Below are positions 23,293 to 40,300 of a stretch of DNA of 63,356 nt, piece by piece. Where the stretch lies: contig JABFXX010000301.1 of assembly GCA_013368795.1 (NCBI GenBank), forward strand, positions 1 to 63,356. The letters run 5' to 3'. Made by a program: the position numbers and the translations under genes. The notes under the pieces were generated by a model, which made no database searches, was not told the DNA's origin, and saw only the letters and a program-made list of their open reading frames with translations. Position 1 is the stretch's first letter; each line of letters opens with the position of its first letter. Source of the stretch: Kofleriaceae bacterium (GTDB lineage: Bacteria; Myxococcota_A; Polyangia; Haliangiales; Haliangiaceae).

Positions 23293-24648
23293 ATGAAGTT
23301 GGCTCTCGTTACCGGCAGTCTGGCCTTGCTCGTCTCGAACAGCGCTCTCGCACGGCCTCGTGTCGATGCGTCCGGGCGTCTCATCCGCGACGCGCATAGC
23401 TGCGGCACGACGCGCATTCCCGCGCCGGTCACGCTCGCGACGCCGTTCGCCTCGCCGGGCACGCGCACGATCTATCTCAACCGCAACGGCGGCACGTACA
23501 ACATCACGAACGCCGCGACCGACGCGGCAACCAACACCGCCAACGTGATCGCGGCGGGCGACGGCCGCTCGCACATGAACGCCGTGATCCCGCCGCTCGA
23601 GTCGACGTTCGACTGGCCGTACATCGTCGAGTGCGTGAAGAAGCAGTACAAGCCGTACAACGTCATCATCACGGAGACCGAGCCGGCGTCTGGCAGCTAC
23701 GTCGAGGCCGTCGTCGGTGGCAACGGAGCCAGCACCGGGTGGAGCGCGAGCTCCGGCATCCTCGGCGTCGCGTCGGCCGACAACTTCTGCGGCGTGACCG
23801 AGAAGGGCATCGCGTTCAGCTTCTCGACCAATCACCGCGGGATCCAGAAGCCCAACGACGAGCTGTGTGCGACCGTCGCGCACGAGATCGGCCACCTGCT
23901 CGCGCTCGAGCACGAGATCTCCGCGCCTGACACGATGTCGTACGTGCCGTTCGCGTCGGCCGGGCAGAAGAGCTTCACGAACGCCAACTCGCAATGCGGC
24001 ACCGACGCGCAGAACACGAACAGCTGCAGCTGTCAGACGACGGGCACCGGCCAGGTCACGAGCTCCGGGATGCGCCTCACGCAGTTCATCGGGCTGCGGC
24101 CGATGGAGACGATGCCGCCGACGCTCGACATCACGTCTCCGGGCGATGACAGCAGGGTGAGGCCGACGTTCGCGGTGACCGCGAACGCCGCCGACGAGAC
24201 CGCGATGGAGCAGGTCGCGGTCTTCCTGGGCGGCATGAACGTCGGCGCGAGCACGACCCCGCAAGGAACGGTCTACACGATCCCGCTGGCGAACGTCGCG
24301 GAGGGCTCGTACACGCTCGAGGTTCAGGCGATCGATCTCGCCGGCAACGTCACCAAGCGGCAGCGTGCGATCACCGTCGCGCTCGGTACGCTCGGCGAGA
24401 CCTGCGCGACGAACGAGGAGTGCAGCGGCAAGGTCTGTGCGGAGGACTCCGACGGCGCCTACTGCACGCAAGTGTGCGACGCCGAGAACGCGTGTCCCGA
24501 CGACTCCGAGTGCAAGAGCGCGGGCACGGTGAGCGTCTGCGTTCCGGATAGCGGCGGATGCTCGGCCGGCGGCGCAGGCAACGGGGGAGCGCTCGTGCTC
24601 CTCCTCGGTGCGCTCGTCTCGAGGCTGCCGCGTCGTCGACGTGGCTAA
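23293..24648 (+). CDS. Secreted zincin metalloprotease with MYXO-CTERM-like tail
   Basis: 451 aa. Signal peptide to about 20. HEIGHLLALEH at 197-207 is the extended HExxHxxxxxH zinc motif, and DTMSY (about 213) is the Met-turn, as in matrixin-like proteases. Residues about 275-360 form an Ig-like/FnIII-like domain (TLDITSPGDDSRV on), then a Cys-rich region with eight Cys (about 370-420). The end GGCSAGGAGN, a hydrophobic stretch (ALVLLLGALV) and RRRRG is a sorting-signal layout like MYXO-CTERM, implying anchoring on the outer surface. It shares its stop bases with the convergent RND gene (CTAA at 24645-24648). Confidence 0.85.
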   Translation: MKLALVTGSLALLVSNSALARPRVDASGRLIRDAHSCGTTRIPAPVTLATPFASPGTRTIYLNRNGGTYNITNAATDAATNTANVIAAGDGRSHMNAVIPPLESTFDWPYIVECVKKQYKPYNVIITETEPASGSYVEAVVGGNGASTGWSASSGILGVASADNFCGVTEKGIAFSFSTNHRGIQKPNDELCATVAHEIGHLLALEHEISAPDTMSYVPFASAGQKSFTNANSQCGTDAQNTNSCSCQTTGTGQVTSSGMRLTQFIGLRPMETMPPTLDITSPGDDSRVRPTFAVTANAADETAMEQVAVFLGGMNVGASTTPQGTVYTIPLANVAEGSYTLEVQAIDLAGNVTKRQRAITVALGTLGETCATNEECSGKVCAEDSDGAYCTQVCDAENACPDDSECKSAGTVSVCVPDSGGCSAGGAGNGGALVLLLGALVSRLPRRRRG

Positions 24649-27600
24649 GTCGCGCGCGGCCGAGCGAGACGCCCGTAGAGGGCCGGGATCACGATCATGT
24701 TGAGCGCGGTGGAGGAGACGAGACCGCCGAGGATCACGACCGCCATCGGCGCCTGGAGCTCGTTGCCAGGCTCGCCGCCGGCGAGCACGAGGGGGACGAG
24801 GCCGAGGCCGGCGCACAGCGCTGTCATCAGCACCGGTGACAGGCGCTCCATCGAGCCGCGGAACACGGCTTCATCGAACGGCGCGTTCTCGACCGTGCGC
24901 AGGTGTTCGTAGTGCGAGATCAGCATGATCCCGTTGCGCGTCGCGATGCCGAACAGCGTCACGAACCCGACCAGCGACGCGATGCTGATGATGCCGCTTC
25001 CGAAGTAGATCGCGATCACGCCACCGATCAGTGCGAGCGGTAGGTTGACCATGATCAGGAGCGCGTTGCGTAGCGACCGGAACGAGAGGTAGAGCAGGGC
25101 GAGGATGCCAGCCACGACGACCAGGCCCAGCAGCATCAGCGTGCGCGATGCAGACTGCTCGCTCTCGAACTGGCCGCCGTACACGACGTAGTAGCCGGGT
25201 GGGAGCCTCACCTTCGATTCGATGCCGCTTCGGATGTCGTCAATGACACTGCGTAGGTCGCGTTCCCCGACGTTTGCCGATACGACGACCTTTCGTTGCA
25301 CGTTCTCGCGCGAGATCGTGTTCGGCCCGACATCCTCGCGGATCGTCGCGAGCATCTTCAGCGGCACGCGCACGCCCGTTGGCGTGTCGACGACCGTGTT
25401 ACGGATCGCGTCGAGATCCGCGCGCTGGTCGTCGCGATAGCGCACGATCACGTCGTAGGTGCGCTGCTGCTCGAGGACCTGCGTCACCTTCTTCCCCGCG
25501 TATGCCGTCTCGATGACCTCGGCGAGCGCGCCGCTGCGCAGGCCGTAGCGCGCGATCGCTTCGCGATCGAACGAGATCGCGAGCTGTGGGATGTCGACCT
25601 GCTGCTCGATGGAGAGATCGACGACGCCAGAGACGTCGCTCATCACCTGCTTGATCTGCTCGGCGGTCGTGCGGAGCTCGCTCAGGTCGTCGCCGAAGAT
25701 CTTGATCGCGATGCTCGCGCGCGTGCCCGACAGCATGTGATCGATCCGGTGCGCGATCGGACCACCGATCGTGCACACGACGCCAGGGACGGTCGTGAGC
25801 TGGCGGCGCAGGGCTGCGAGGAAGTCTTCTTTCGACCGGTCGGCGAGCTTCAAGCGCACGTCGATCTCCGCCGCATTGACGTCCTGCGCGTGCTCGTCGA
25901 GCTCGGCTCGCCCCGTGCGTCGCGCCGTCGAGACGACCTCGGGGAATGACCGCAGTACCTCTTCGACGCGGCGACCGAGCTTGTCGGATTCCTCGAGTGA
26001 TGTGCCCGGCAGCGTGACGGCGCTGACCGTCAACGCGCCCTCGTTGAATTCCGGGAGGAACGTGCGGCCGAGGAACGGCACGATCGCGATCGTGGCGGCG
26101 AGGAGCGCGACGGCGCCGATGCCGACGGTGCCGGGCCGCCTCACCGCGAACCTCAGCGCGGGTGCGTACACGCGTTTGAGATGGCGGACGACGAACGGAT
26201 CTCCGTGTGTCTTGTCGCCGACCCGGCGCAGCACGTACGAGCAGAGCGCGGGCGTCAGCGTCAGCGCGACGACGAGCGACGCGCCGATCGCGACCAGGTA
26301 CGCGAAGCCGAGGGGCCGAAGCAACCGACCCTCGACACCCGAGAGGAAGAAGATCGGGATGAAGACGAGCATCACGATCAGCGTCGCGAACACGATCGAT
26401 CCGCGGACCTCGCGCGATGCTTCATAGATCACGTCGTCCGGTTTGCGGCGTTCGGATTCGGGACGCGCGCCGTTCTCGCGGAGACGACGGAACACGTTCT
26501 CGACGTCGATGATCGCGTCGTCGACGAGCGCGCCGATCGCGATCGTCATGCCACCGAGCGTCATCGTGTTGATCGTGATGCCAAACGCGCTCATCGCGAG
26601 GATGGCGACGAGCAGCGACAGGGGCAGCGACGCGAGCGAGATCAGCGTCGTGCGGACGTTGAACAGAAAGATGAACAGGATGACCGCGACGAGGATCGCG
26701 CCGTCGCGGAGCGCGGTCGACACGTTGCTGACTGCGGCTTCGATGAAGTCGGCTTGCCGTGCCTTGTTGCGCTCGATGATGACGCCCTCGGGCAGCGTCG
26801 ACTGGATCGCGTCGAGCTCCGCGTCGATTCGCTTCGTCAGCTCGAGCGTGTTCACGGCCGGCTGCTTCGTGATGCCGAGTACGACCGCGGGCAGCGCGTT
26901 CGACGAGCCCTCGCCGCGTTTCATCGCGGGCCCGACGCTGACGTTCGCGACCTGACCGACGAGGATCGGCACACCGTTGCGTGCGCTCACGACCACGTTG
27001 CGCAGATCGTCGAGCGAGCCGACCCGGCCGACCGCACGGATCAGCGACTCCTGCGCACCGTGGACGTAGAACCCACCGGTCGAGTTCTGGTTCGATTCTT
27101 CGAGCGCCCTGGTGACTTCGTCGAGGGTGACCTCGAACGCGCGCAGCCGTTCGGGATCGAGCTGGATCTGGTACTGGCGGACGGAGCCGCCGATCGGTAC
27201 GACCTGGGCGACGCCCGGGATCGCGAGCAGCCGGCGACGGACGGTCCAGTCTGCAGCTTCACGCACGACCATCGGATCGATGCCGTCGCCACGGAGCGCG
27301 ATGAAGAGCACCTCGCCCATGACCGAAGCGATCGGCGCGAGCGTCGGTGCTGGAACATCCGGCGGCAGATGTCCGCCGACGAGCTGCAGCTTCTCGTTGA
27401 CGATCTGACGAGCGACGTAGATGTCGGTCCCCCAGTCGAACTCGACCCAGACGATCGAGATGCCGATACCCGACGACGAGCGCACGCGGCGCACGCCGGT
27501 CGCTCCGTTCACCGAGGACTCGATCGGAATCGTGACCAGCGATTCGACCTCCTGGGGCGCGAGACCGTGCGCTTCGGTAACGACGGTGACCGTCGGCGCC

Positions 27601-27734
27601 GTGAGATCCGGGAACACGTCGACCGGCATCTTCAGGGTCGTCCACGAGCCGTAGCCGACGAGCAGGACCGCCGAGATCACGACCGCGAGGCGGTTCGCGA
27701 TCGACCAGCGAATGATTCGATCCATCAGGTGCAT
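24645..27734 (-). CDS. Heavy-metal RND efflux pump, inner-membrane subunit (CusA/HME type)
   Basis: About 1029 aa from ATG 27734 (27725 also possible). Twelve membrane helices with two large periplasmic domains in the RND order. The HME-type helix-4 motif reads AIGALVDDAIIDVEN, the AIGAxVDxAIxxxEN style of CusA, not the DFG style of the second pump. PDLTAPTVTVVTEAHGLAPQ and the closing GIATRNGIMLISHYEHLRT are family hallmarks. It would pump metal ions from cytoplasm or periplasm through the TolC partner using proton flow. Last gene of the BlaI-M56-C-B-A set. Metal not fixed by sequence. Confidence 0.9.
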   Translation of the reverse strand: MHLMDRIIRWSIANRLAVVISAVLLVGYGSWTTLKMPVDVFPDLTAPTVTVVTEAHGLAPQEVESLVTIPIESSVNGATGVRRVRSSSGIGISIVWVEFDWGTDIYVARQIVNEKLQLVGGHLPPDVPAPTLAPIASVMGEVLFIALRGDGIDPMVVREAADWTVRRRLLAIPGVAQVVPIGGSVRQYQIQLDPERLRAFEVTLDEVTRALEESNQNSTGGFYVHGAQESLIRAVGRVGSLDDLRNVVVSARNGVPILVGQVANVSVGPAMKRGEGSSNALPAVVLGITKQPAVNTLELTKRIDAELDAIQSTLPEGVIIERNKARQADFIEAAVSNVSTALRDGAILVAVILFIFLFNVRTTLISLASLPLSLLVAILAMSAFGITINTMTLGGMTIAIGALVDDAIIDVENVFRRLRENGARPESERRKPDDVIYEASREVRGSIVFATLIVMLVFIPIFFLSGVEGRLLRPLGFAYLVAIGASLVVALTLTPALCSYVLRRVGDKTHGDPFVVRHLKRVYAPALRFAVRRPGTVGIGAVALLAATIAIVPFLGRTFLPEFNEGALTVSAVTLPGTSLEESDKLGRRVEEVLRSFPEVVSTARRTGRAELDEHAQDVNAAEIDVRLKLADRSKEDFLAALRRQLTTVPGVVCTIGGPIAHRIDHMLSGTRASIAIKIFGDDLSELRTTAEQIKQVMSDVSGVVDLSIEQQVDIPQLAISFDREAIARYGLRSGALAEVIETAYAGKKVTQVLEQQRTYDVIVRYRDDQRADLDAIRNTVVDTPTGVRVPLKMLATIREDVGPNTISRENVQRKVVVSANVGERDLRSVIDDIRSGIESKVRLPPGYYVVYGGQFESEQSASRTLMLLGLVVVAGILALLYLSFRSLRNALLIMVNLPLALIGGVIAIYFGSGIISIASLVGFVTLFGIATRNGIMLISHYEHLRTVENAPFDEAVFRGSMERLSPVLMTALCAGLGLVPLVLAGGEPGNELQAPMAVVILGGLVSSTALNMIVIPALYGRLARPRAT

Positions 27735-27736
27735 GG

Positions 27737-29287
27737 CTAGTGCACGTGCCCGTGTGCGGGGACCGAGCCGGCGGAGGACTGCAGCTTGATCTCGTAGGCA
27801 CCTTTGGTAACGACGTGCTCGCCGGCCTTCACGCCATCGAGTACCTCGACCCAACCGTTCGCGCGAATGCCGAGCCGCACCGGCCGCCGCTCGAACGACT
27901 CGCCTTCGATCATGACGAACACGATCGACTTGCCGGCATCGTCGACGATCGCTGAATCGGGGACGGCGAGCGCCTTCTTCGGTGGTCCCGTCGCGATCAC
28001 CGCCTTGGCGAAGTTGCCGATGCGCAGGTGACCGGCAGCGTTATCGACCTCGAAGATGACCGGCGTCGTGCGCGTCTTCGGATCGATCACGCGACCGATC
28101 GTGACGAGCTTGCCGTTGCTGTCGTCGATCGTGAATGGCCGCGGATAGCCCTCGATCGTGAACCACGCCGCGTGCGCACCCTCGACGCGCGGCAGATCCG
28201 GCTCGAACACGTTCGCGACGAGCCAGACCTTCCCGAGGTCGACAACGCGGAACATCGACTGACCTTCCTCGACGCTTTCACCGGATCCGACATCGACCGA
28301 AACGAGCGTGCCGTCGATCGGTGCACGGACCTGGAAGACCCGGCCGTCGCCACGGCCCGACGCGCCGACGTCGAACTGCGCGAGCCGGCCCTTCGTCCCG
28401 CTCACGCGCGCTTCGGCCACCTGCACGCGGGTGCGTGCTTCCTCGACCGCCTTCGCCGGCGCGGCCTGATCTGCGACGAGGCGTTCGGCACGCGCGAGCG
28501 CATTGCGTGCCGCCTCGAGCTCGGCCTGGGCGGCAGCGGCGTCTGCGGCCATCGTCGCGCGATCGCCGAGCGCGCCGACGCGCGGCGAGATCGTCGCGAG
28601 CAGCTGGCCCTTGGCGGTCGGCATGCCGAGCAATGGAACCGGCTCGGCAAGTGACACGCGACCACCGGCGGGTGCGCCGAGTCGCGCCTCGCGACCTGCG
28701 ACGGGCCGGATCTCCGCGCTCGCGCGCACGCCGTCCTGGAGGTCGCGCTCGACGACCGCGACGGTGGCGAAGTCGGTCTTCCACTGCTGCTCCTTGAGGA
28801 ACGCGATGCGGCCGGGTGGCTCGGGTTCGTCGCCCAATGCCTTGCGGGCAGCCGCTTCGTCCGGGAAGACCTCGCATGCGCCCACCGTGAAGGATTGCGT
28901 GACCTGCGCGCTCTCGACGTCCATCGAGAGCGTGCACGCGCCAGCTTTCGTCGGCGTGAGCTTCGGCCGGAAGATGCCCGGGTTGGTCGGCGCGTCGACG
29001 TTGCCGGAGAGTGCCGTACCGTCGCCGTAACGCAGCATCAGCGTGACGCTACCGGCGGTCACCGCCTTGAACGTCGGCATCTCCGTGACGTGCGCGGCGA
29101 ACGCGGTCTCGCGGCCGACGACGAGCGGCTTGTATTCCATGAAGAGCTCGACGCGATCCGCCCACACGGTGACCGACTGCCCCGGGAGCTCGTCGGGCTG
29201 CTTGTCGGGATGATCGTGGTGATCGCCTTCACCGGGGCTGCCGCCGCGGCATGCGACGAGGAGGAGAACGAGCAATGCGCGTCTCAT
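27737..29287 (-). CDS. RND periplasmic adaptor (CusB/CzcB-like) lipoprotein
   Basis: 516 aa from ATG 29287. A lipobox-like LLVAC (about 11) is followed by GDHHDHPDKQPDEL, a His/Asp-rich start, and the protein ends AHGHVH; both ends could bind metal. Residues about 30-140 form an extra N-domain. Residues about 170-220 hold the first beta-barrel/lipoyl half, a coiled-coil hairpin follows (AADAAAAQAELEAARNALAR region, about 270-320), then the second lipoyl half (IDGTLVSVDVGSGESVEEGQ). It links pump to TolC. Two bases before the pump gene; overlaps the TolC gene upstream by four bases. Confidence 0.88.
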   Translation of the reverse strand: MRRALLVLLLVACRGGSPGEGDHHDHPDKQPDELPGQSVTVWADRVELFMEYKPLVVGRETAFAAHVTEMPTFKAVTAGSVTLMLRYGDGTALSGNVDAPTNPGIFRPKLTPTKAGACTLSMDVESAQVTQSFTVGACEVFPDEAAARKALGDEPEPPGRIAFLKEQQWKTDFATVAVVERDLQDGVRASAEIRPVAGREARLGAPAGGRVSLAEPVPLLGMPTAKGQLLATISPRVGALGDRATMAADAAAAQAELEAARNALARAERLVADQAAPAKAVEEARTRVQVAEARVSGTKGRLAQFDVGASGRGDGRVFQVRAPIDGTLVSVDVGSGESVEEGQSMFRVVDLGKVWLVANVFEPDLPRVEGAHAAWFTIEGYPRPFTIDDSNGKLVTIGRVIDPKTRTTPVIFEVDNAAGHLRIGNFAKAVIATGPPKKALAVPDSAIVDDAGKSIVFVMIEGESFERRPVRLGIRANGWVEVLDGVKAGEHVVTKGAYEIKLQSSAGSVPAHGHVH

Positions 29288-30501
29288 GGACGTCTCCCGA
29301 GTGCGAGCCAGAGGTCGAGCTCGGCGAGGCTCGCGTCGCGCCGCAGCTCCAATTCGCGCAGGCGCGCATCGCGCGCGCTCCGATATGCATCGAGCAACTC
29401 GACGATGCTGCCGCCGCCTTCGCGGTAGCCGGTCTCGGCGCTGCGCAGGAGCTGGTCGAGCCGCGCGAGCTGCGTCGACTGGAATACCCTGGCCTGCTCG
29501 ATCCGCGCGGCGAACGTCTCGTGCGCGGTGCGGATCGCGTTCGGTACGTCGCGTTCGAGCAACCTGGCATCGGCCGTTGCAGCGCGACGTGTAGCGTCCG
29601 CGCGTGCGCGGGCTGCAGCGCCTTGACCCGTGATCGGCAGATTCAAGGACAGTCCGGCGACGTAGCCATATCCGCGTTCGGTCTCGAGTTGCTGTGACAT
29701 CGCGCCGCCGGTGAGCTCGAAGATCGGGACCCACGAGCGGTTCGCGGCCTTCCGCTCATCGGTAGCCGCCTCGATGCGCAGCTTCGCCGCGCGATAGTCA
29801 CCGCGACGAGCGAGCGCATTCACGCCGAGTGCCTCGACATCCGGCGCATTGCCGAGTGCGAGCTCGCCGGCGGCGTCGACGCGCGATCCGACGCGGCCGA
29901 GCAAGGTCGCGAGCCTTCGCTGGGATGCGCGGAGCTCGACCGTCGCCGACGTGATCGCATCGTCGTAGTTGCCGAGCTCGAGCTCGAGGCGCTGTCGATC
30001 GTAGCCAGAGGCTTCGCCGGCCTTCGCCCGCTTCGAGACGATGTCGACGGCGCGCACGAGTGCCAGCCGCTCGTTCGTCATCAACTCGATGCGCAGGCGC
30101 TGATACGCGGTCTCGCGGAACACGCGCAGCCCTTCGACCACCACCTGGAGACGGCCGAGGTCGCCCTGCGCTTGCGTCGCCCGCACCTCCGCTCGTGCTG
30201 CGTCTACGCGAAGGCCGCGACGACCCGACAGGTCAAGCGGGAGAACAACGCGTAGATAGTCCGTATCGAGCCCACCGCTCGAGGGAAACACGTGCTCGCG
30301 ATCGGCGACGATGCGCGGCTCGGGCCGGATCTCGGCGGACTTGACGTGCGCATGTGCGGCATCGACCTCGGCGGCGAGTCGCTCGACACGCGGGTCGCTG
30401 GACTCGAGCGATTTGATCAATGTCGCTTCGTCGACAACCTCCGCCCGAGCGACGCTTGGCAGCGTCGACGCTACTATCAGCGGTAGTAGATGAAGTCGCA
30501 T
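29284..30501 (-). CDS. TolC-family outer-membrane channel (CusC/CzcC-like)
   Basis: 405 aa from ATG 30501, which gives a good signal peptide (MRLHLLPLIVASTLPSVARA). Two repeats of long helices (SLESSDPRVERLAAEVDAAH, and FAARIEQARVFQSTQLARLD) with strand pairs between them make the channel layout. Codons 5-10 hold two CTA Leu codons and an ATA Ile codon, rare choices in a GC-rich gene. They are explained by the BlaI-type dyad that overlaps them (30471-30489). 29-base gap to the M56 gene; overlaps the adaptor by four bases. Confidence 0.88.
   Translation of the reverse strand: MRLHLLPLIVASTLPSVARAEVVDEATLIKSLESSDPRVERLAAEVDAAHAHVKSAEIRPEPRIVADREHVFPSSGGLDTDYLRVVLPLDLSGRRGLRVDAARAEVRATQAQGDLGRLQVVVEGLRVFRETAYQRLRIELMTNERLALVRAVDIVSKRAKAGEASGYDRQRLELELGNYDDAITSATVELRASQRRLATLLGRVGSRVDAAGELALGNAPDVEALGVNALARRGDYRAAKLRIEAATDERKAANRSWVPIFELTGGAMSQQLETERGYGYVAGLSLNLPITGQGAAARARADATRRAATADARLLERDVPNAIRTAHETFAARIEQARVFQSTQLARLDQLLRSAETGYREGGGSIVELLDAYRSARDARLRELELRRDASLAELDLWLALGRRP
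30471..30489. promoter_or_regulatory. Second BlaI/CopY-type dyad, inside TolC gene start
   Basis: CTACTA (30471-30476), seven bases, TAGTAG (30484-30489). Same arms and spacing as the dyad at 31876-31896. It falls on codons 5-10 of the TolC gene and forces rare codons there. It may act as an internal operator or roadblock for the CBA genes. Confidence 0.65.
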
Positions 30502-30530: not shown

Positions 30531-31472
30531 TCAGCCGAGCAGCGTCTCTAGCGCGTGGTGGAGCTGGGACGCGAGTAGCGTCGTGGCGACGATCGCGGCG
30601 CCGGCGAGCATCCATACCCGCCAGCCGAGTCGCGTACCCATCGGCGCGCCGGAGAGCACGGCGCGGACGCGATGCTCCAGGGTGGCGGCGCCCGGCATGA
30701 AGCTGCCTGGCAATGCTTGCAGGTGCCCTGCGCGGCACATCTGCACCAGAGCACTGGCCACGGTCGCTGGTGCGGTCGCGCGTGCGGCGTATGCATCGCA
30801 CAGGCGCTCGCTCGCATCTGCCCACTGCATATGCAGCCAGCTACCGGCGAGTGGCGCTGCCACCGTCGACGCGAGCTCGACGACGGTGCTCATCCACAGA
30901 TCGCCAGAGTCGGCGTGCGCCTGCTCGTGCGCGAACACCGCATCGCGCTCCTCGTCTGATAGTGCGTCCCATGCACGCGAGGACATATAGACCTCGGGCC
31001 TGCGCCAACCAGCGACGAAGCAGAACACGCGATCGGAACGGGCGATTCGTACGCGGTCCCCGAGATCGGAGACGCGACGGACCTGCGCGACAGCGCGCCG
31101 CGCACGTTCGCGCCGCCAGGCGACGATGGCGATCCGCAGCACGAACGTGATCGTGGAAGCAGCCGCGAGCGCGACGGCCCATGGCCGCTCGAGCCAGGCG
31201 GCGCCGTGTACGAGGCAGAAGTGAGCGTGGTGGTGATGCCCGATGCAGTGATCGACGCTACCCGATCCGATCGCTGCGATGACGCCGACGATCGTCACGG
31301 CGAGCACGATCGGCGCGAGGAGCGCCCAGGCCGCAGCACTTCGCTCCGCAGCGGGGCCACGGGCGCGCAGCCGCTCCGCCGTCAGCGCAAACCATCCCGT
31401 CGCGATCAGCGAGAACGCGGTCACGAGGACGACCGCGAGCACACCGAATCCGACGAGGCTGCCAGGGCTCAT
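30531..31472 (-). CDS. M56-family membrane protease (BlaR1/MecR1-like) with His/Cys metal-sensor-like loop
   Basis: 313 aa. HEQAH at 182-186 and E222 in SERLCDAYA make the gluzincin zinc site of M56. Membrane segments lie near 6-30, 48-70, 95-118 and 284-303. Between helices 2 and 3 the loop D74-H-C-I-G-H-H-H-H-A-H-F-C-L-V-H89 has six His and two Cys in 16 residues. There is no penicillin-binding sensor domain, unlike BlaR1. My inference: it senses metal and cleaves the BlaI-type repressor encoded just upstream (ATGA overlap). Known for the family: ligand binding outside triggers proteolysis inside. Confidence 0.85.
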   Translation of the reverse strand: MSPGSLVGFGVLAVVLVTAFSLIATGWFALTAERLRARGPAAERSAAAWALLAPIVLAVTIVGVIAAIGSGSVDHCIGHHHHAHFCLVHGAAWLERPWAVALAAASTITFVLRIAIVAWRRERARRAVAQVRRVSDLGDRVRIARSDRVFCFVAGWRRPEVYMSSRAWDALSDEERDAVFAHEQAHADSGDLWMSTVVELASTVAAPLAGSWLHMQWADASERLCDAYAARATAPATVASALVQMCRAGHLQALPGSFMPGAATLEHRVRAVLSGAPMGTRLGWRVWMLAGAAIVATTLLASQLHHALETLLG

Positions 31473-31855
31473 TTGCGTCTCTTGTGCTCTGCGATCAACC
31501 GCTCGAGCTGCGCGAGGTTGCCCTCATCGACCTTCGCCGCAACGTCGACGAACGCCGCGAGCACCGGGGCTGCACCGTCCTCGAACATCGGTCCGAGCGC
31601 TGCTTCCACCACGCGGCGCTGATACTCGGTGCGATCCATGGCGGGCACGTACAGGAAGGCATTGCCTTCCTTCGTGCGCGCGAGGAGCCCCTTCTTGTGG
31701 AGGCGATCGAGCGTGGTCATCACGGTCGTGTACGCGAGCTTGGTTCGCTTCAGCCGCGCGCAGACGTCGCGAACCGACAGCGGGCTCTCGTCCCACAAGA
31801 TCGACATCAGGCGCTCTTCGAGCTCGCCGAGTGCGCGCATCGCCCGCAAGGCCAT
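31469..31855 (-). CDS. BlaI/MecI/CopY-family repressor
   Basis: 128 aa. The N-terminal winged helix is clear: LGELEERLMSILWDESPLSV, then TTVMTTLDRLHKKGLLARTKEGNAFLY, the family's recognition helix and wing. The C-terminal half (residues about 75-125) is helical for dimerisation, with the usual cut region in the middle. Members bind a dyad over the promoter and are inactivated by protease (BlaR1) or, in CopY, by copper. Here both possibilities fit: M56 is the next gene. The CopY Cys pair is absent, so protease control is more likely. The gene may be nearly leaderless. Confidence 0.88.
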   Translation of the reverse strand: MALRAMRALGELEERLMSILWDESPLSVRDVCARLKRTKLAYTTVMTTLDRLHKKGLLARTKEGNAFLYVPAMDRTEYQRRVVEAALGPMFEDGAAPVLAAFVDVAAKVDEGNLAQLERLIAEHKRRK

Positions 31856-31860
31856 GTCTG

Positions 31861-31896
31861 TTGCTAGCCTGCTGTCCTACTACAGTCAATAGTAGG
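31861..31896 (-). promoter_or_regulatory. Repressor promoter with overlapping operator dyad
   Basis: Minus-strand -35 TTGACT (31889-31884) and -10 TAGCAA (31866-31861) are separated by exactly 17 bases. The dyad CCTACTA (31876-31882), N7, TAGTAGG (31890-31896) straddles the -35, the standard place for BlaI-type repression. The start codon at 31855 is so close to the -10 that the mRNA would be leaderless. The same dyad lies 21 bases before the permease gene at 31918, so both directions are probably controlled. Confidence 0.75.
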
Positions 31897-31917: not shown

Positions 31918-32964
31918 ATGCCGCGCAGTCCGCTCGCCACCGGCGTCCTGCTCGCCGCGCTCGCGGCGGTGGCGTTCGGTGTCGCGACGCCGCTCGTCGC
32001 GTGGGCCGGTCGCGATGTCGGCCCGCTGTCGACGGCAGCGCTGCTCTATCTCGGTGCTTCGCTGATGGCGCTCGTCCTCGATCGCGCGATTCGCCGCGAC
32101 GAGGCCAAGCTTCGACGCAGCGACACACCGCGCCTGATCGCGATCGCGGTTGCCGGCGGCGCGATCGCACCGACGCTGCTCGCGTGGGGCCTCCAGCGCG
32201 CGGGTGCAACCGCTGGTTCGCTACTCCTCAACCTCGAGGCGGTGTTCACGGTCCTGCTCGCGCGGGCGTTCTTCCACGAACCGATCGGCCGTCGCGTCGC
32301 GGTGGCCGTCGCGTGCATGGCGGCCGGTGGAGCCGCGCTGACGCTGGACTCGTCGAGCGCCGGCAGCTTCGGCCTGCTCGGCGTGCTCGCGGTCGCTGGT
32401 GCGACGGCAGCGTGGGCGCTCGACAACACGCTCACGCGACCACTCGCCGAGCGCGATCCGTTCCAGATCATCCTCGCGAAGGGCGTGCTCGGCGCGAGCC
32501 TGACCGGTGTCCTCGCGATCGCGCGGGGCGAGCCGATGCCACCGATCGAGCACGCGGCCGTGCTCCTCGCGTGCGGTGCGACGGGCTATGGCGCGAGCCT
32601 TTACCTGTACATGCTCGCGCAGCGCCGCATCGGCGCGGGCCGTACCGGCTCGGTGTTCGCGCTCGCTCCGTTCATCGGCGCGGCGCTCGCGTGGGGGCTC
32701 GGCGATCGACATGCCGGAGCATTCGGACTTGCCGCCGCTGGCCTGTTCGCGCTCGGCGTCTACCTGCACGTCAGCGAACGCCACGGTCATCGTCACGTTC
32801 ACGAGCCGATCGAGCACGAGCACATGCATCGTCACGACGACGAGCACCACACGCACGTGCACGTGCCGCCGTTCGTCGGCGAGCATTCACACGTGCATCG
32901 TCACGACCATCTCGAACACGACCACGCCCACGCTCCCGATATCCATCACGCTCATCGACACTAG
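31918..32964 (+). CDS. EamA/DMT-type permease with long His-rich C-terminal tail
   Basis: 348 aa. Two EamA repeats with about ten membrane helices (residues 1-285) such as LLNLEAVFTVLLARAFFHEP in the first repeat. From about residue 290 the tail is ERHGHRHVHEPIEHEHMHRH, then more HxH and DH runs to the end: about 20 His in 58 residues. Such tails bind zinc, nickel or copper. Divergent from the BlaI gene with the operator dyad between, so likely part of the same regulon. The exporter role for metal or a metal chelate is inferred. ATG 31918 is the only sensible start. Confidence 0.85.
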   Translation: MPRSPLATGVLLAALAAVAFGVATPLVAWAGRDVGPLSTAALLYLGASLMALVLDRAIRRDEAKLRRSDTPRLIAIAVAGGAIAPTLLAWGLQRAGATAGSLLLNLEAVFTVLLARAFFHEPIGRRVAVAVACMAAGGAALTLDSSSAGSFGLLGVLAVAGATAAWALDNTLTRPLAERDPFQIILAKGVLGASLTGVLAIARGEPMPPIEHAAVLLACGATGYGASLYLYMLAQRRIGAGRTGSVFALAPFIGAALAWGLGDRHAGAFGLAAAGLFALGVYLHVSERHGHRHVHEPIEHEHMHRHDDEHHTHVHVPPFVGEHSHVHRHDHLEHDHAHAPDIHHAHRH

Positions 32965-32976
32965 TACGGAGCGGTG

Positions 32977-33297
32977 CTAGCGCGTGCCCTCGTCGATCAT
33001 CTCTTCGTGGCGCTCGATCACCTTCCCGCTCTCGGAGATCTCGATCTCGTGTTCCTTACCGTTCGAGATCATGTCGACCTCGTACTTGGTCACGCCGTGT
33101 TCGGTCTCCTTCTTGATCTTTTCGATCTGCTTGCCTTGGGCCTCGCGCTCCACGGTCGCCTTCACCGCCGCCGGCAACTCTTCCATCTTCACCAGTTGGT
33201 GCTGATGGCTCTCCTCGTTCTTCTCTTGGCCATATGCCGTCGTGGCCACCATCGGCGTCGCGAGCGCATAAGCCAGGATCCATTTCGAGTAATTCAT
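32977..33297 (-). CDS. Small exported PepSY-like protein
   Basis: 106 aa. Signal peptide ends TTAYGQ; a short EESHQHQ follows. Residues about 40-100 carry the PepSY-type pattern LPAAVKATVEREAQGKQIEK, KYEVDMISNGKEHEIEISE and GKVI. These small domains occur near two-component and metal genes and may inhibit proteases or bind metal. Here the gene is convergent with the permease and divergent from the DUF1259 gene. Low conservation of composition; Lys/Glu-rich. Confidence 0.75.
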   Translation of the reverse strand: MNYSKWILAYALATPMVATTAYGQEKNEESHQHQLVKMEELPAAVKATVEREAQGKQIEKIKKETEHGVTKYEVDMISNGKEHEIEISESGKVIERHEEMIDEGTR

Positions 33298-33398
33298 GAT
33301 TGTTCTCCGCCCCTCGAGCGAAGCATCGAGTGTGCCACCAGGTAACGGACGCTTGCTCCCGGAGCTTCGAGTAGGGTTTGTTCGCGAAAGGAGTCACC

Positions 33399-34355
33399 AT
33401 GCGCGCGCGATGGGCGGTCGTTCTGCTGATGGCAGTGGGGTGCACGAAACAAGGGGCGTCGTCGCGAGAGACGCGAGCCGCGGACCCGCCGGCTCCAGCG
33501 GCGCCGCCAAAGCCGGCGCCACCGCCGAGCGCGCCCGGCCTCGACACGGCTCGCATCGAGAAGCTCACCGGCGCCAAAGGCACGCTGAGCGAGAAGGACG
33601 GCGTGTTCAAGGTGTCGGTGCCGCGCAAGGATCTCGCGGTGAGGATCGGCGGTGTGAAGATGACACCGCCGATGGGGCTCACGGCGTGGGCGGCGTTTCA
33701 GAAGATGGGCGACCACGCGATGGTGATGGGCGATATCGTGCTCACCGAAGATCAGGTCAACCCGGTGATGAGCGCGGCGCTCGATAGCGGGCTCGAGGTG
33801 ACCGCGCTCCACAATCACTTCTTGTGGGACAACCCGAAGGTCATGTTCATGCACATCGGTGGCATGGCTGACGAGACGACCCTCGCCACCGCCGTCGGCA
33901 AGGTGTTCGCGAAGCTTCACGCGACCGAGGGGGGCAAGGGCGAAGCGCCGCCGAAGCTCGCGATCGATCCGGCGAAGAGCAAGCTCGATGCCGCGAAGCT
34001 CGACGCGGTCTTTGGCCAGAAGGGCGACTACAAGGACGGCGTGTACAAGGCGACGTTTGGCCGCACCACGACGATGCACGGTGTCGAGGTAGGCAACGCG
34101 ATGGGCGTCAACACGTGGGCCGCGTTCGCGGGTACGGATGCTGCGGCGGTCGTCGACGGTGACTTCGCGATGCTCGAGTCCGAGCTCCAGAACGTGCTGA
34201 AGACGCTGCGCAAGGCCAACATCCAGATCGTGGCCATTCACCAGCACATGACCGGCGAGCAGCCGCGGATCATGTTCCTCCACTTCTGGGGGACCGGAAG
34301 GCCGGAGGAGCTCGCGGGCGGTATCAAGGCGGCCCTGGACACCCAGTCCAAGTAG
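33399..34355 (+). CDS. Exported protein with two DUF1259 (LppY/LpqO-like) domains
   Basis: 318 aa from ATG 33399, with AAAGGAG 6 bases upstream. Lipobox-like VGC at about 14, then a Pro/Ala linker. Two copies of the DUF1259 domain: residues about 47-165 with ALHNHFLWDNPKVMFMHIGG, and about 195-310 with AIHQHMTGEQPRIMFLHFWG. The HNH/HQH and MFxHx groups could form a metal site. The family has no firm function; secretion and the metal neighbourhood suggest metal binding. Next gene starts 20 bases downstream. Confidence 0.85.
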   Translation: MRARWAVVLLMAVGCTKQGASSRETRAADPPAPAAPPKPAPPPSAPGLDTARIEKLTGAKGTLSEKDGVFKVSVPRKDLAVRIGGVKMTPPMGLTAWAAFQKMGDHAMVMGDIVLTEDQVNPVMSAALDSGLEVTALHNHFLWDNPKVMFMHIGGMADETTLATAVGKVFAKLHATEGGKGEAPPKLAIDPAKSKLDAAKLDAVFGQKGDYKDGVYKATFGRTTTMHGVEVGNAMGVNTWAAFAGTDAAAVVDGDFAMLESELQNVLKTLRKANIQIVAIHQHMTGEQPRIMFLHFWGTGRPEELAGGIKAALDTQSK

Positions 34356-34375
34356 CGGCGCGACGAGGGCGCTCG

Positions 34376-34389
34376 CTTGACACGTCAAG
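34376..34389. promoter_or_regulatory. CTTGAC-N2-GTCAAG dyad with -35-like TTGACA
   Basis: CTTGAC (34376-34381), AC, GTCAAG (34384-34389), containing TTGACA; a weak TAAAGC lies 16 bases on. It could be the promoter/operator of the second efflux operon. If so, the start of the small gene is the GTG at 34416, not the TTG at 34377. Confidence 0.35.
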
Positions 34390-34733
34390 TGGGCCACAGT
34401 AAAGCCTGTAAAGGCGTGCGAGTTCTGGTCGCGATCGTGCTGCTGCTCACCGTGACCCCGGGAATGACCGAGGTCGCCGAGGCGGCAGTGCATCTCGTCC
34501 TCCACGGCGACTTCCAGCACGATGGTGACGGTCACGAGCAGGGATGCGACGAGCATTCATGCACCGTCCTCGCCCATCACTGCGGTTGTCACTCCGCGAT
34601 GTCGGCGCAAACGTCGACCAAGGTGGCGTACTCGGATCAGCTCCGAGGCATCACCAGGAGCGAGCTCCGACGCGCCACGACGGCATTTGGCCGCGTGAGC
34701 GAGCCGCCGCCGCTGCGGCCACCGATCCGTTGA
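34377..34733 (+). CDS. Small exported His/Cys-rich protein at head of CBA operon (CzcI-like position)
   Basis: 118 aa from TTG 34377, or 105 aa from GTG 34416. One hydrophobic signal (VLVAIVLLLTVTPGM) then HGDFQHDGDGHEQGCDEHSC and AHHCGCHSAM: seven His and four Cys, a periplasmic metal-binding tract. It resembles the small proteins before czcC in other bacteria (CzcI) by place and composition only. Start not settled because the TTG overlaps a promoter-like dyad. Followed 122 bases later by the TolC-type gene. Confidence 0.6.
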   Translation: MTRQVGHSKACKGVRVLVAIVLLLTVTPGMTEVAEAAVHLVLHGDFQHDGDGHEQGCDEHSCTVLAHHCGCHSAMSAQTSTKVAYSDQLRGITRSELRRATTAFGRVSEPPPLRPPIR

Positions 34734-34855: not shown

Positions 34856-36094
34856 ATGTCTCGCCAGTGGCCCGCGCTCGCCGCGGTTCTCTCTCTGACA
34901 CTTTCATCTCAGCTCGCGTCTGCACGTCCGATCACACTCACCGAAGCACTCTCCCTCGCCGATCGCAGTCCCGCGCTCACGGCGGCGGAAGCACAGGTCG
35001 ACGCGGCACGAGGCAGCCTCGAGCAATCCGAGATCTACCCCTACAATCCCGTCCTCGGCGGCAGCTTCGGGCCTGCGCGGTCCCGGGGCATGACGTTCTA
35101 CGACTACGACGTCGGACTCAGCCAGACGATCGAGCTCGGCGGTAAGCGCCGTGCCCGCGTGTCCGCTGCCGCCGCAGAACGCGATGCGGCGGTGCAGACG
35201 CTCGCCTGGACCAAGGCCGTGCTCCACGCCGAGGTCCGCCGAGCCTTTCAGGAGGTGCTCGTCGCTCAGTCGCGCGTGACGGTGGCGACCGAAGCCGAGA
35301 CGTTCGCGCGCGAGCTGAGAGAGGCCGCGCTGGAACGCCTTCGACTCGGCGCTGCGACGCAGACCGAGGTGAACGTCGCGATCGCGAACCTCGGGCGATC
35401 GATCGTCGCGAAGCGGACTGCCGATCGCGACCTGATCCTCGCGCAGCGTGCATTCGGCGATGCGATGGGCGTCGTCGGAACCGGGCTGGAGCCGGTCGGT
35501 GCGTTGCCGACGTTTCCGGTCGCGCCTTCCGACGAGAAGATGCTCGTCGACGAGGCGATCTCGACGCGTCCCGATCTCATCGCGGCATACCGCACGCGGG
35601 CGGCTCGCTCCGCTGCGGTCGACCTCGCCGATGCACAGGCTGTCCCCGATCCCCAGCTCTCCGTCAGCTGGGTCCGGTCAGCCGTCGAGGATTCGAGCTC
35701 GATCGTCGTCGGCGCGCAGATCGCGCTGCCGCTGGTGAACCGGAACCAGGGGAATCGGCATGCGGCTCGTGCGGCTCTCAAGCGCGCGACCATCGAGCGC
35801 GACGCCGCTCGGCTCGCCATCGAACGTGACGTGCGCACCACGCGCCGTCGCTACCAGGCCGCCAGCGAGGCGGTCGCTGCATTCGATCAACAGGTCGTCG
35901 GCAAGCTCGGCGAGAACCTCAAGCTCGCCCGCGAGATGCTCGCGGCCGGAAAGCTCGGGCTCCTCGAGCTCAACACGGTTCGACGTGACCTCGTCGAATC
36001 TCAGCTCTCGTATCTCGATGCGATTGGAGAGGCAGTCGAAGCGCGCGCAGCGCTCGAGCGGGCACTCGGTCGTTCGTTGGAGGTGATGCCGTGA
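34856..36094 (+). CDS. TolC-family channel of second RND system (CzcC-like)
   Basis: 412 aa. Signal peptide ends LASARP. The repeats (LTEALSLADRSPALTAAEAQ, and RLAIERDVRTTRRRYQAASE) and GLSQTIELGGKRRARVSAAA, with LRLGAATQTEVNVAIANLGR later, fit CzcC. The gene ends in an ATGA overlap with the adaptor. Compared with the first TolC (29284) it is clearly a different subfamily, so the two CBA sets did not arise by a recent duplication. Confidence 0.9.
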   Translation: MSRQWPALAAVLSLTLSSQLASARPITLTEALSLADRSPALTAAEAQVDAARGSLEQSEIYPYNPVLGGSFGPARSRGMTFYDYDVGLSQTIELGGKRRARVSAAAAERDAAVQTLAWTKAVLHAEVRRAFQEVLVAQSRVTVATEAETFARELREAALERLRLGAATQTEVNVAIANLGRSIVAKRTADRDLILAQRAFGDAMGVVGTGLEPVGALPTFPVAPSDEKMLVDEAISTRPDLIAAYRTRAARSAAVDLADAQAVPDPQLSVSWVRSAVEDSSSIVVGAQIALPLVNRNQGNRHAARAALKRATIERDAARLAIERDVRTTRRRYQAASEAVAAFDQQVVGKLGENLKLAREMLAAGKLGLLELNTVRRDLVESQLSYLDAIGEAVEARAALERALGRSLEVMP

Positions 36095-37299
36095 AATCCA
36101 TCCTGATCATTTTCTCGCTGCTGGCGGCATGCAAGAGCGGCGACAAGGCGTCGGCATCGCTCGCCGCGGGCGACAAGGGACATGGCGAAACCGGCGAAGC
36201 CCACGAGGCAGAGGGGCATGCCGAAGGTGGAGTGACGGTTCATCTGACGCCCGAGCAGATCAAGTCCGCCAGCATCCAGCTCGCCACCGTCGAGACGCGC
36301 AAGGAGACGGCGGTCCTCGAGGCGAACGGTCAGATCGCGGCCGCGGACGATCGCCAGGCTCGGATCGGCGTGCGCGTTCCCGGACGCGTCACCGCGATCA
36401 AGGCAGCGGTCGGCGACACCGTCAAGAAGGGCCAGACGCTCGCCGTCGTCGAGTCGCCCGAGCTCGGTCGCGCGAAGTCGGACTACGTGTCGGCGGCGGC
36501 GGCAGCACGCCTTGCCAAGGAGAACGCCACCCGCGAGAAGCAGCTCTTCGAGCGAAGCATCAGTGCGGAGGTCGAGTGGCGCAAGGCAGAGGCCGAGTCG
36601 GTGCGCACGGAGGCCGAGCTCCAGGCAGCGGAGAACCGCCTCCACGCTCTCGGTGTCGGCGACGACGCGCTGCCCGACAAGGTCGCTCACTTCGGTTCGT
36701 CGCTCACGGCGGCTTCGCCGATCGCCGGTGTGATCGTCGACCGCGACGTGACGCTCGGCGAGATGGTGAACCCCGAGAAGACGCTGTTCCACGTCATGGA
36801 CCTGTCGCAGGTCTGGCTCATCGTCGACGTGTTCGAGCGCGATGTCTCGCAGGTCGCGCTGAAACAGAAGGTGAAGGTCCAGGTCACGGCGTACAAGGAG
36901 GAGGCGTTCGAAGGCGAGGTCAGCTACATCGGCGCCGTCGTCGAGCCGCGCAGTCGCGCCGTGAAGGTGCGGATCGCGCTGCCGAATGCAGAGGGCCGCC
37001 TCAAACCCGGCATGTTCGCGCGTGTCTCGCTGTCCGACACGAAGGGCACCGAACACGAGCACCTGTTTGTTCCCGTCGAGGCCGTGCAGCGCACCGACAA
37101 GGGACCGATCGTGTTCGTGCCCGGCGACAAGCCAGGAGAATTTGCCGCGCGTTCCGTCAAGACGGGCCACGAGGCCGGCAACAGCGTCGCGATCGAGACG
37201 GGCCTCAGCGCTGGCGACCAGGTCGTCGTCGCGGGCTCGTTCATCCTGAAGTCAGAGCTCAACAAGGAGTCGCTCGGCGAGGGCGGCCACTCCGATTAG
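36091..37299 (+). CDS. RND periplasmic adaptor of second system (CzcB-like)
   Basis: 402 aa. Lipobox LLAAC (about 8-12), then a His/Glu tract (GHGETGEAHEAEGHAEGG). The barrel/lipoyl halves (VRVPGRVTAIKAAVGDTVKK, ASPIAGVIVDRDVTLGEMVN) and a short hairpin (KSDYVSAAAAARLAKENATR) follow; AGMFARV-type strands near the end. Shorter than the first adaptor because it lacks the extra N-domain. Known role: passes metal from the pump to the channel. Ten bases before the pump gene. Confidence 0.9.
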   Translation: MKSILIIFSLLAACKSGDKASASLAAGDKGHGETGEAHEAEGHAEGGVTVHLTPEQIKSASIQLATVETRKETAVLEANGQIAAADDRQARIGVRVPGRVTAIKAAVGDTVKKGQTLAVVESPELGRAKSDYVSAAAAARLAKENATREKQLFERSISAEVEWRKAEAESVRTEAELQAAENRLHALGVGDDALPDKVAHFGSSLTAASPIAGVIVDRDVTLGEMVNPEKTLFHVMDLSQVWLIVDVFERDVSQVALKQKVKVQVTAYKEEAFEGEVSYIGAVVEPRSRAVKVRIALPNAEGRLKPGMFARVSLSDTKGTEHEHLFVPVEAVQRTDKGPIVFVPGDKPGEFAARSVKTGHEAGNSVAIETGLSAGDQVVVAGSFILKSELNKESLGEGGHSD

Positions 37300-37309
37300 G
37301 GAGACGACC

Positions 37310-40300
37310 ATGCTCGAAAAGATCATTCGCTGGTCGGTCGCCAACCGCATCATCGTCATCATCCTGTCGCTCGTTCTCGTCGCCGGTGGAATCGTGGCGA
37401 TGCAGCGGCTTCCGATCGACGCGGTTCCCGACGTGACCAATGTCCAGGTCCAGGTTCTGACCAAGGCGCCCGCGCTCGGGCCGGAGGAGGTCGAGAAGTT
37501 CATCACGACGCCCGTCGAGCTCTCGATGAGCGGCCTGCCGGGCCTCGAGGAGGTCCGCTCGACGTCGAAGTTCGGGCTGTCGGCCGTGACCGTCGTGTTC
37601 GAGGACGGCACGGACATCTACTTCGCGCGGCAGCTGATCAACGAACGCCTGCAGCAGGCGCGTGAAGCGATTCCACAAGGCTATGGCGAGCCCGAGATGG
37701 GACCGATCTCGACCGGCCTCGGCGAGATCTACCAGTTCGAGGTTCGCAACGCTCCCGTCGACGAATCGATCGCCGGCGAGCATCCGGCGAAGAAGTCGCC
37801 GATGGAGCTGCGCTCGATCCTGGAATGGGAGATCGCGCCGCGCCTCCGCACGGTGGCTGGTGTCATCGAGGTCAACGCGTTCGGTGGCGAGCTCAAGACG
37901 TACGAGGTCCAGGTCCGTCCCGACGATCTGACGCGGCACGACATCGCGGTCGACGACGTCATGAAGGCGCTCGAACGCAATAACGCGAACGCCGGTGGCG
38001 CGTACATCGAGCGCGCCGGCGAGCAGTTCCTCGTGCGCGGTGAGGGCCTGGTCTCCACGCTCGAGGACATCGGTGACATCGTCGTCACCAACGATGCCGA
38101 CGGCACGCCGATCTTCATCCGCAACATCGCGGACGTGAAGTTCGCACCGATGGTTCGCCAGGGCGCGGTGACGCGCGATGGCCGCGGCGAGGTCGTGACC
38201 GGCATCGCGATGATGTTGATGGGAGCGAACTCGCGAAAGGTCGTCACCGATCTCAAGGCGGAGGTCGAGAGACTGCGCCCGAGCCTCGCGAAGATGGGCG
38301 TGGTGATCGACACGTTCTACGACCGCACGGCGCTCGTGAACAAGACGATCCACACGGTCTCGAAGAGCCTCATCGAAGGTGGCCTCCTCGTCATCGTCAT
38401 CCTGTTCCTGATGCTGCGGAACCTGCGCGCGGGTCTGGTTGTCGCGAGCGTGATCCCGCTGGCGATGCTGTTCGCATTCATCGGCATGACCCGACTCGAC
38501 GTGTCCGGAAACCTCATGTCGCTCGGTGCGCTCGACTTCGGGCTCATCGTCGACGGCGCGGTGATCCTGATCGAGAACTCGATCCGGCTCATCGCCGAGA
38601 AGTCACATCATCTCGGCAGACCGCTCACACCTGGCGAACGCGCCGAGACCGTCGTCGAAGCCTCGGCCGAAGTCCGGCGCGCGACGCTGTTCGGCGTGAT
38701 CATCATCTCGATCGTCTACCTGCCGATCCTCGCGCTCGTCGGGATCGAGGGGAAGATGTTCAGGCCGATGGCGATGACGGTCCTGCTCGCGCTGACCGGA
38801 TCGATGATCCTGGCGTTCACGTTCGTTCCGGCGCTCGCGTCGATGGTGCTGCCGAGGCGTATGGCCGAGAAGGACAGCGTCATCGTCGCAGCCGCGCGCA
38901 AGGGCTTCGAGCCGGCGCTCCGGCGCACGATGCGCCATCCGGTGATCACGGCGATCATCGCGGTCGTCGCGCTCGCGGGCACCGGCATCGTCGCGACGCG
39001 GCTCGGCGCCGAGTTCGTACCAACGCTCGACGAAGGCGCCATCGCGCTCCAGGCATGGCGCCCGCCGAGCGTGTCGCTCGAGGAGTCCGTCCGCCAGACC
39101 ACCGAGATGGAGAAGGTCCTCGAGGAGTTTCCCGAGGTCGTCACGGTCGTCTCGAAGACAGGCCGTGCAGAGATCGCGACGGACCCGATGGGCGTCGAGG
39201 TCTCGGACGTGTTCGTGATGCTCCGGCCGCACGAGGAATGGACGACCGCGGGCGATCGCGAAGCGCTGGTCGCCAAGATCGACGAACGTCTGAAGGCGCG
39301 CTTGCCCGGCACGATGTTCAGCTATTCGCAGCCGATCCAGCTTCGCGTCGACGAGCTCATCTCGGGCGTTCGTTCCGAGGTCGCCGTGAAGGTGTTCGGC
39401 GATGACCTCGAAACCTTGAATCGCGTCGCCGCCAAGGTCGTGGCGGTGCTGTCGAAGGTTCCAGGCGCCGCCGAGGTGAAGGCCGAGCAGACCGCAGGCT
39501 TGCCGGTCCTCCGGGTCCTGATCGATCGCCGCGCGATCGCTCGCTACGGGCTCAACGCGGGTGACGTCCTCGATGTCATCTCGACGCTGGGTGGTCGCCA
39601 GGTCGGCGTCGTGCTCGAGGGATCGAAGCGCTACGCTCTGCAAGTTCGCTTCGCCCCGGAGGCGCGGACGAGCGTCGACGCCGTCAAGCGGCTACTCGTG
39701 CGAGCCCCGAACGGCGAGCGGGTTCCGCTCGAGCAGGTCGCCGACGTGGTGATCGAGGACGGCCCCGCTCAGATCAGTCACGAGCAGGGCAGGCGCCGCG
39801 TGACGATCGAGCTCAATGTCCGCGGCCGAGACCTCGCCTCGTTCGTCTCCGACGCCCAGGCCAAGCTGCTGGCCGCGGACGTGGTGCCGGCCGGCTACTT
39901 CGTCGAGTGGGGCGGCCAGTTCGAGAACCTGGCGGCTGCGAGCAAACGCCTCCTCATCGTCGTTCCGCTCGCGCTGGCGCTCATCCTGGTGCTGCTCTAC
40001 ATGAGCTTCAACTCGATCGCGCTCGGACTCCTCATCTACCTCAACGTGCCGTTCGCGATCATCGGCGGCATCCTCGCGCTCGCGATCCGAGGCCTGCCGC
40101 TCTCGATCTCGGCGGGCGTCGGGTTCATCGCGCTGTTCGGTGTCGCGGTCCTCAACGGCCTCGTGCTGATGGGCTCCGTACAGCATCGACGAGCCAGTGG
40201 TGTCCCGGCCGCGCGCGCCGCGTACGAGATCGCGCAGCTCCGGCTTCGGCCCGTGCTGATGACGGCCCTGGTCGCGTCGCTCGGCTTCGTGCCGATGGCG

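Follow-up and report, generated by a model that had tools for sequence, protein, structure and literature searches.

The operon blaI-M56-OMF-MFP-RND found in the window, which is the whole 63,356-nt stretch of DNA analyzed from a Kofleriaceae bacterium, probably constitutes a self-contained metal-resistance switch of the BlaR1 type, a reading to which we assign a probability of roughly three in four. The metal-sensing role proposed for a Cys/His loop of its membrane protease is well supported, albeit indirectly. The fold of this protease, the order of the genes, the conservation of the loop and the positions of the operators were all established computationally.

The protease, P0001 (30531-31472, minus strand), is a BlaR1-type M56 membrane zinc protease of 313 aa with an ATG start, identified by Pfam (PF05569, Peptidase_M56; 32.2 bits against a cut-off of 31) and by its AlphaFold2 model. 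Its M56 domain contains a gluzincin site, HExxH followed by E, formed by the motif HEQAH at residues 182-186 (30915-30929, minus strand) with E222 as the third ligand and then D226, all of which are invariant or nearly so in homologues. The model, built with 49 family members, reached a pLDDT of 92.8 and a pTM of 0.89 and has the membrane and protease fold of BlaR1, with the protease domain between TM3 and TM4. The closest structures are those of Staphylococcus aureus BlaR1 solved by cryo-EM (8exs; Z 14.2, 228 aligned residues), and the runner-up family is ZMPSTE24 (Z 10.5). Because BlaR1 is the top structural match, we do not claim the fold as new. P0001 stops at residue 313, only 14 residues past the last membrane helix, and therefore has no penicillin-binding domain; indeed, the C-terminal sensor domain was absent from both its sequence and its AlphaFold2 model. 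These data agree with the sequence-only reading, which had described a BlaR1-type M56 protease that is paired with BlaI and lacks a penicillin-binding domain; the pairing is further supported by a 4-bp overlap between blaI and the M56 gene.

In the model, residues 72-90 form the loop that joins helices 40-71 and 97-134, and the confidence is lowest in this loop (mean pLDDT 68 over residues 71-80). In BlaR1, the L2 loop between TM2 and TM3 and all sequence beyond TM4 lie outside. Since P0001 was mapped onto this known topology, its Cys/His loop (72-90) and its HHxxE tail (301-313) are both predicted to be periplasmic; by that mapping, the loop would correspond to the outside L2 loop and the tail would occupy the place of the BlaR1 sensor domain. 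The putative metal-ligand cluster itself, DHCIGHHHHAHFCLVH, covers residues 74-89 (31206-31253, minus strand) and is backed by its invariance in homologues and by a pattern scan. It contains two Cys (76 and 86) and seven His (75, 79, 80, 81, 82, 84 and 89), so that the His/Cys cluster and the two Cys noticed earlier between TM2 and TM3 stand, whereas the earlier count of six His does not. In its densest stretch of 16 residues, P0001 has 9 His/Cys, whereas no more than 8, and that only once, were reached in 20,000 shuffled sequences. The C-terminal tail HHALETLLG (H305, H306 and E309; 30534-30560, minus strand) was singled out by its conservation as a candidate for the other half of the ligand site.

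Conservation was examined in 26 diverse homologues with a mean column identity of 39%, the relatives being drawn from the same phylum. The loop columns H75, C76, H82, H84, C86 and H89 (P0001 numbering) are invariant in this set, as are H182, E183, H186, E222, D226, R268, H305 and E309, with H306 nearly so; the residues of loop and tail match those of the catalytic site in their invariance. A homology search of genome contigs with P0001 alone returned no related loci, and a DNA pattern for the loop succeeded instead. Scanned over 84,980 species genomes, the pattern D-H-C-x2-H-x2-H-x-H-x-C-x2-H yielded 67 matches, every one of which is an M56 homologue (67/67) with an adjacent BlaI gene (67/67), against an estimated chance expectation, derived from the pattern's information content, of less than one match. 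The loop of P0001 is conserved far beyond chance. Moreover, 49 proteins selected by the loop alone all share H305 and E309, and more than 90% of them keep H306; because HHxxE lay outside the search pattern, its retention provides independent support for a joint loop-tail site. The hosts belong to Myxococcota (including Archangium lansinium, Corallococcus and Pyxidicoccus fallax), Acidobacteriota (Holophagae) and Pseudomonadota, the last with Zeta-, Gamma- and Betaproteobacteria (Mariprofundus, Thiocapsa marina and Massilia), in addition to one MAG labelled Riflebacteria. By its own criterion, the sequence-only reading would have been refuted by close relatives that have the operon but not the loop; all close relatives were found to have the loop. 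In one clade (loci L039, L074, L075, L078 and L124), the tail changes from HHxxE to H[ATS]xxE and the loop has an additional His immediately before the conserved HLC, which looks like ligand compensation.

The partner of P0001 is P0002, a BlaI/MecI/CopY-family repressor of 128 aa (31469-31855, minus strand; Penicillinase_R, 100.4 bits), and a BlaI gene adjoins the M56 gene in all 40 contexts gathered by homology. The LAAFVD segment of P0002, aligned to VLNFVE of MecI, is strongly conserved, with F102 present in 92 of the 108 neighboring BlaI proteins; it aligns to the N101-F102 bond of MecI, the known cleavage site.

On the same strand, the protease gene is followed by the genes of an RND system, namely a TolC-type outer-membrane factor (OMF; 29284-30501; OEP, 91.5 bits), a CusB/HlyD-type periplasmic adaptor (MFP) with a His-rich N-terminus (27737-29287; HlyD_D23, 83.7 bits; TIGR01730, 155 bits) and a CusA/CzcA-family heavy-metal pump with the motif AIGALVDDAIIDVEN (24645-27734), all on the minus strand. 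The pump passed the curated cut-off for HME-RND membership, with 871.6 bits against 701.45 for TIGR00914. Among the 71 loci whose downstream sequence extends for 1.5 kb or more, 64 have OMF, MFP or RND genes there in the same orientation, and a heavy-metal RND pump follows in 35 of the 38 loci with 5 kb or more. This synteny and the two predicted operators described below support the earlier proposal that the target operon is a heavy-metal RND efflux set. CDF and HupE/UreJ transporters are neighbors in some relatives. Divergent from blaI is a gene for an EamA/DMT transporter (31918-32964, plus strand; EamA, 99 bits), the tail of which carries 25 His among its last 75 residues; this exporter is possibly a second target of the operator O1 and is likely a member of the regulon. 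The window also contains a second heavy-metal RND operon (OMF, MFP and a CzcA-type pump with DFGLIVDGAVILIEN) at 34856-40495, 3 kb from the first, which has neither M56/BlaI genes nor a CTACTA dyad. Between the two RND operons, at 32977-34733, lie genes for a PepSY-like small protein, a DUF1259 protein and a small His/Cys-containing protein (34377-34733).

Two operators are predicted for this system. O1 (31876-31896, unstranded), CCTACTA-n7-TAGTAGG with the full sequence CCTACTA-TTGACTG-TAGTAGG, is located 20 bp 5' of the blaI start codon, in the 62-bp gap separating blaI from the divergent EamA gene, and covers a -35-like TTGAC element. A sigma-70 promoter scan at O1 gave nothing above threshold, so that it is conservation alone that suggests the -35 reading of TTGAC. 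O2 (30470-30490, unstranded), CTACTA-n7-TAGTAG with the same arms as O1, lies 41 bp past the M56 stop, within codons 4-11 of the OMF gene. The presence of two predicted operators with the same dyad, one outside and one inside the target gene, is a new finding. When O1-like dyads were scored in non-redundant blaI upstream regions by a weight matrix, with the 99% level in shuffled sequence as the threshold, 69 of the 90 regions, on which the matrix had also been trained, contained a dyad above threshold; given this training, independent operator tests weigh more. A second dyad with the same arms was found at the M56/OMF junction of 42 of 57 relatives (estimated chance number, 0.4), and 40 of these 42 dyads are situated within 9-48 nt of a start codon of the gene that follows. 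Arm sequences vary among lineages (CTACTA/TAGTAG, AAACCGA/TCGGTTT or TCCGA/TCGGA) but are palindromic throughout; the gammaproteobacterial plasmids likewise have an O1/O2 pair with perfect arms and differing spacers.

The distribution of exact sites was examined in whole genomes. In the 9.8-Mb source genome, O1 and O2 are the only occurrences of the exact dyad, and among 36 related genomes the dyad was present in six, all of which have the protease gene, and absent from the other 30. For the AAACCGA type, one or two exact sites were detected in 9 of 11 further genomes; in the three of these that were reached by homology, the exact sites are at the system itself, and in the remaining ones the site sequences are mostly identical to O1/O2 sequences of the loci examined. 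In addition, residues 40-43, 46, 47 and 50 in the recognition helix of BlaI are among the best trackers of the operator arm class, which backs the BlaI-operator pairing, as support rather than proof because the two arm classes partly follow clades. Extra dyads with the same arms beyond O1 and O2 occur at -2570 (L104), +166 (L055) and -1416 (L066), and are possibly further targets or a third operator.

Several relatives depart from this arrangement. M56-BlaI-RND operons of Shewanella, Pseudoalteromonas, Glaciecola and a Salmonella IncC plasmid share the gene order, dual operators and HHxxE tail of the window system, but differ in having a His-only loop, a DFG...DGA pump and an added HupE/UreJ gene. 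One such His-only system with its pump (L015, NZ_CP100354.1) is carried on an IncC conjugative plasmid of Salmonella from pork, a close relative of Shewanella plasmids. The RND pumps encoded next to Cys/His-loop proteases have the motif A[IVL]GxxVDDAIxxVEN, with minor departures from it. Where the protease lacks the Cys/His motif (the L049/L050/L053 type and the plasmid HWHH...WH type), the neighboring pump is instead of the DFG...DG[AS] type. This association between RND type and loop type covers only two clades. The motif-less groups occupy two distinct positions in the M56 tree, with weak support for their placement; if the placement is right, the association arose at least twice. In another clade (L056, L059, L060 and L068, with L098 and L085 as copies of L059 and L060), no RND genes lie downstream; instead, in the four loci examined, a TonB-dependent receptor with the motif RSHxHGQGxxDL adjoins the M56/BlaI pair, and the operator pair was not found there. 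This arrangement hints at regulated metal uptake.

Clusters of Cys and His frequently bind zinc in a structural role, and the loop might accordingly serve as a site of this kind or as a brace on the periplasmic face, with the true trigger being, for example, envelope stress or a peptide. The TonB-receptor clade, which keeps the same loop beside another target, fits this explanation. However, BlaI is predicted from the gene contexts and operators to control metal-efflux genes in nearly all loci, and a change of pump type is accompanied by a change of the loop, so we consider a purely structural role unlikely. The loop has exactly two invariant Cys on the oxidizing side of the membrane, as would be expected if a C76-C86 disulphide opened or closed upon oxidation with the His residues being secondary. 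For a disulphide, however, the four further invariant His and the HHxxE tail would be superfluous, and the gammaproteobacterial His-only loop (HWHH...WH) shares the operators and the operon; a redox switch therefore appears quite improbable.

BlaI could also sense the metal itself in the manner of CopY, a member of the same repressor family, leaving M56 as an accessory; P0002 does score 45.9 bits against CopY_TcrY, below the cut-off of 122. Nevertheless, the CopY metal site CxCx4CxC was found in none of the 108 neighboring BlaI proteins, 65 of which are free of Cys (P0002 has one), and the protease is always retained. The repressor is thus not a CopY-like sensor and sensing must lie elsewhere, which makes metal sensing by BlaI alone very unlikely indeed. 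Metal sensing by the loop of the protease remains our preferred reading. As to which metal is sensed, we favor, with low certainty, a divalent transition ion (Zn, Cd, Co or Ni) over Cu+ or Ag+. The residues of the window pump aligned to the CusA methionine triad (M573/M623/M672) are not Met, which does not by itself identify the metal.

From this evidence we infer a course of events that includes metal binding, activation, BlaI cleavage and a roadblock at O2. Without metal, BlaI would occupy O1 at the blaI promoter and O2 at the start of the OMF gene and keep the efflux genes off. The Cys/His loop that joins TM2 to TM3, probably in concert with the HHxxE tail that follows TM4, would then capture excess periplasmic metal, and the metal-bound loop and tail would substitute for the lactam-acylated sensor domain of BlaR1. 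Binding would shift TM2-TM4 and activate the cytoplasmic zinc-protease site, and the active M56 protease would remove BlaI from O1 and O2, likely by a cut near A101-F102. The pump genes, and probably also the divergent His-tailed EamA exporter, would be expressed until the periplasmic metal drops. O2 may act as a roadblock that permits low-level production of the regulatory pair with the pump genes silent; alternatively, it may mark an internal promoter or take part in O1-O2 looping.

Metal resistance in Gram-negative bacteria is usually ascribed to two-component systems, MerR regulators and sigma factors. Most likely, the system described here is a widespread new version of the switch best known from penicillin resistance, present in soil and marine bacteria of several phyla. 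If so, irreversible proteolytic control would be a common alternative in Myxococcota and Acidobacteriota, and the BlaR1 chassis would be able to take a new sensor through one changed loop and one tail. Being small and tractable, the system would lend itself to the study of transmembrane signal transfer by BlaR1-type proteases; its His-only form is also present on mobile plasmids.

The window system has a precedent in PetP/PetR of Synechocystis (slr0241/slr0240), in which a copper-activated BlaR-family protease degrades a BlaI-family regulator (PMC7896320, PMC13421787). The claim from the sequence-only reading that no metal-triggered BlaR1 relative is known thus falls; on the other hand, PetP/PetR demonstrates that a metal can trigger an M56/BlaI-type pair (PMC13421787). 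BlaR homologues with an unknown role have also been reported in other marine bacteria (PMC10141476). The two systems are alike in having a BlaR-family membrane protease, a metal trigger (copper there, proposed here) and a BlaI-family target. They differ in that PetP/PetR acts on plastocyanin and cytochrome c6 and PetR also activates, whereas the target here is efflux: the predicted operators lie at the regulator and efflux genes and not at plastocyanin or cytochrome c6 genes. The dual operators and the defined loop and tail further distinguish the window system, with PetP compared by description only. We consider it reasonably probable that the loci represent a cross-phylum, metal-gated BlaR1-type family distinct from PetP/PetR, in which a composite of the Cys/His L2 loop and HHxxE would replace the lactam sensor and a second operator, lying inside the first efflux gene among its signal-peptide codons, would form a roadblock between regulatory and pump genes. 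A search of a limited literature collection for M56/BlaI pairs beside RND pumps did not find the system described.

The staphylococcal BlaR1/BlaI and MecR1/MecI systems share with the window system the M56 fold and topology, a BlaI/MecI partner, adjacent genes and dyad operators. In contrast to them, a Cys/His L2 loop and a short tail stand here in place of a lactam-acylated sensor domain, and both the metal-efflux target and the second operator inside the target gene are features of the present system. CopY/TcrY belong to the same repressor family and likewise have metal-resistance targets, but CopY itself binds the metal via CxCx4CxC, a site absent here. Finally, CusRS and CzcRS, which act with CusCBA and CzcCBA, also couple periplasmic metal sensing, as proposed for the window system, to the control of an HME-RND pump, but they do so through a histidine kinase and a response regulator rather than a protease and a repressor.
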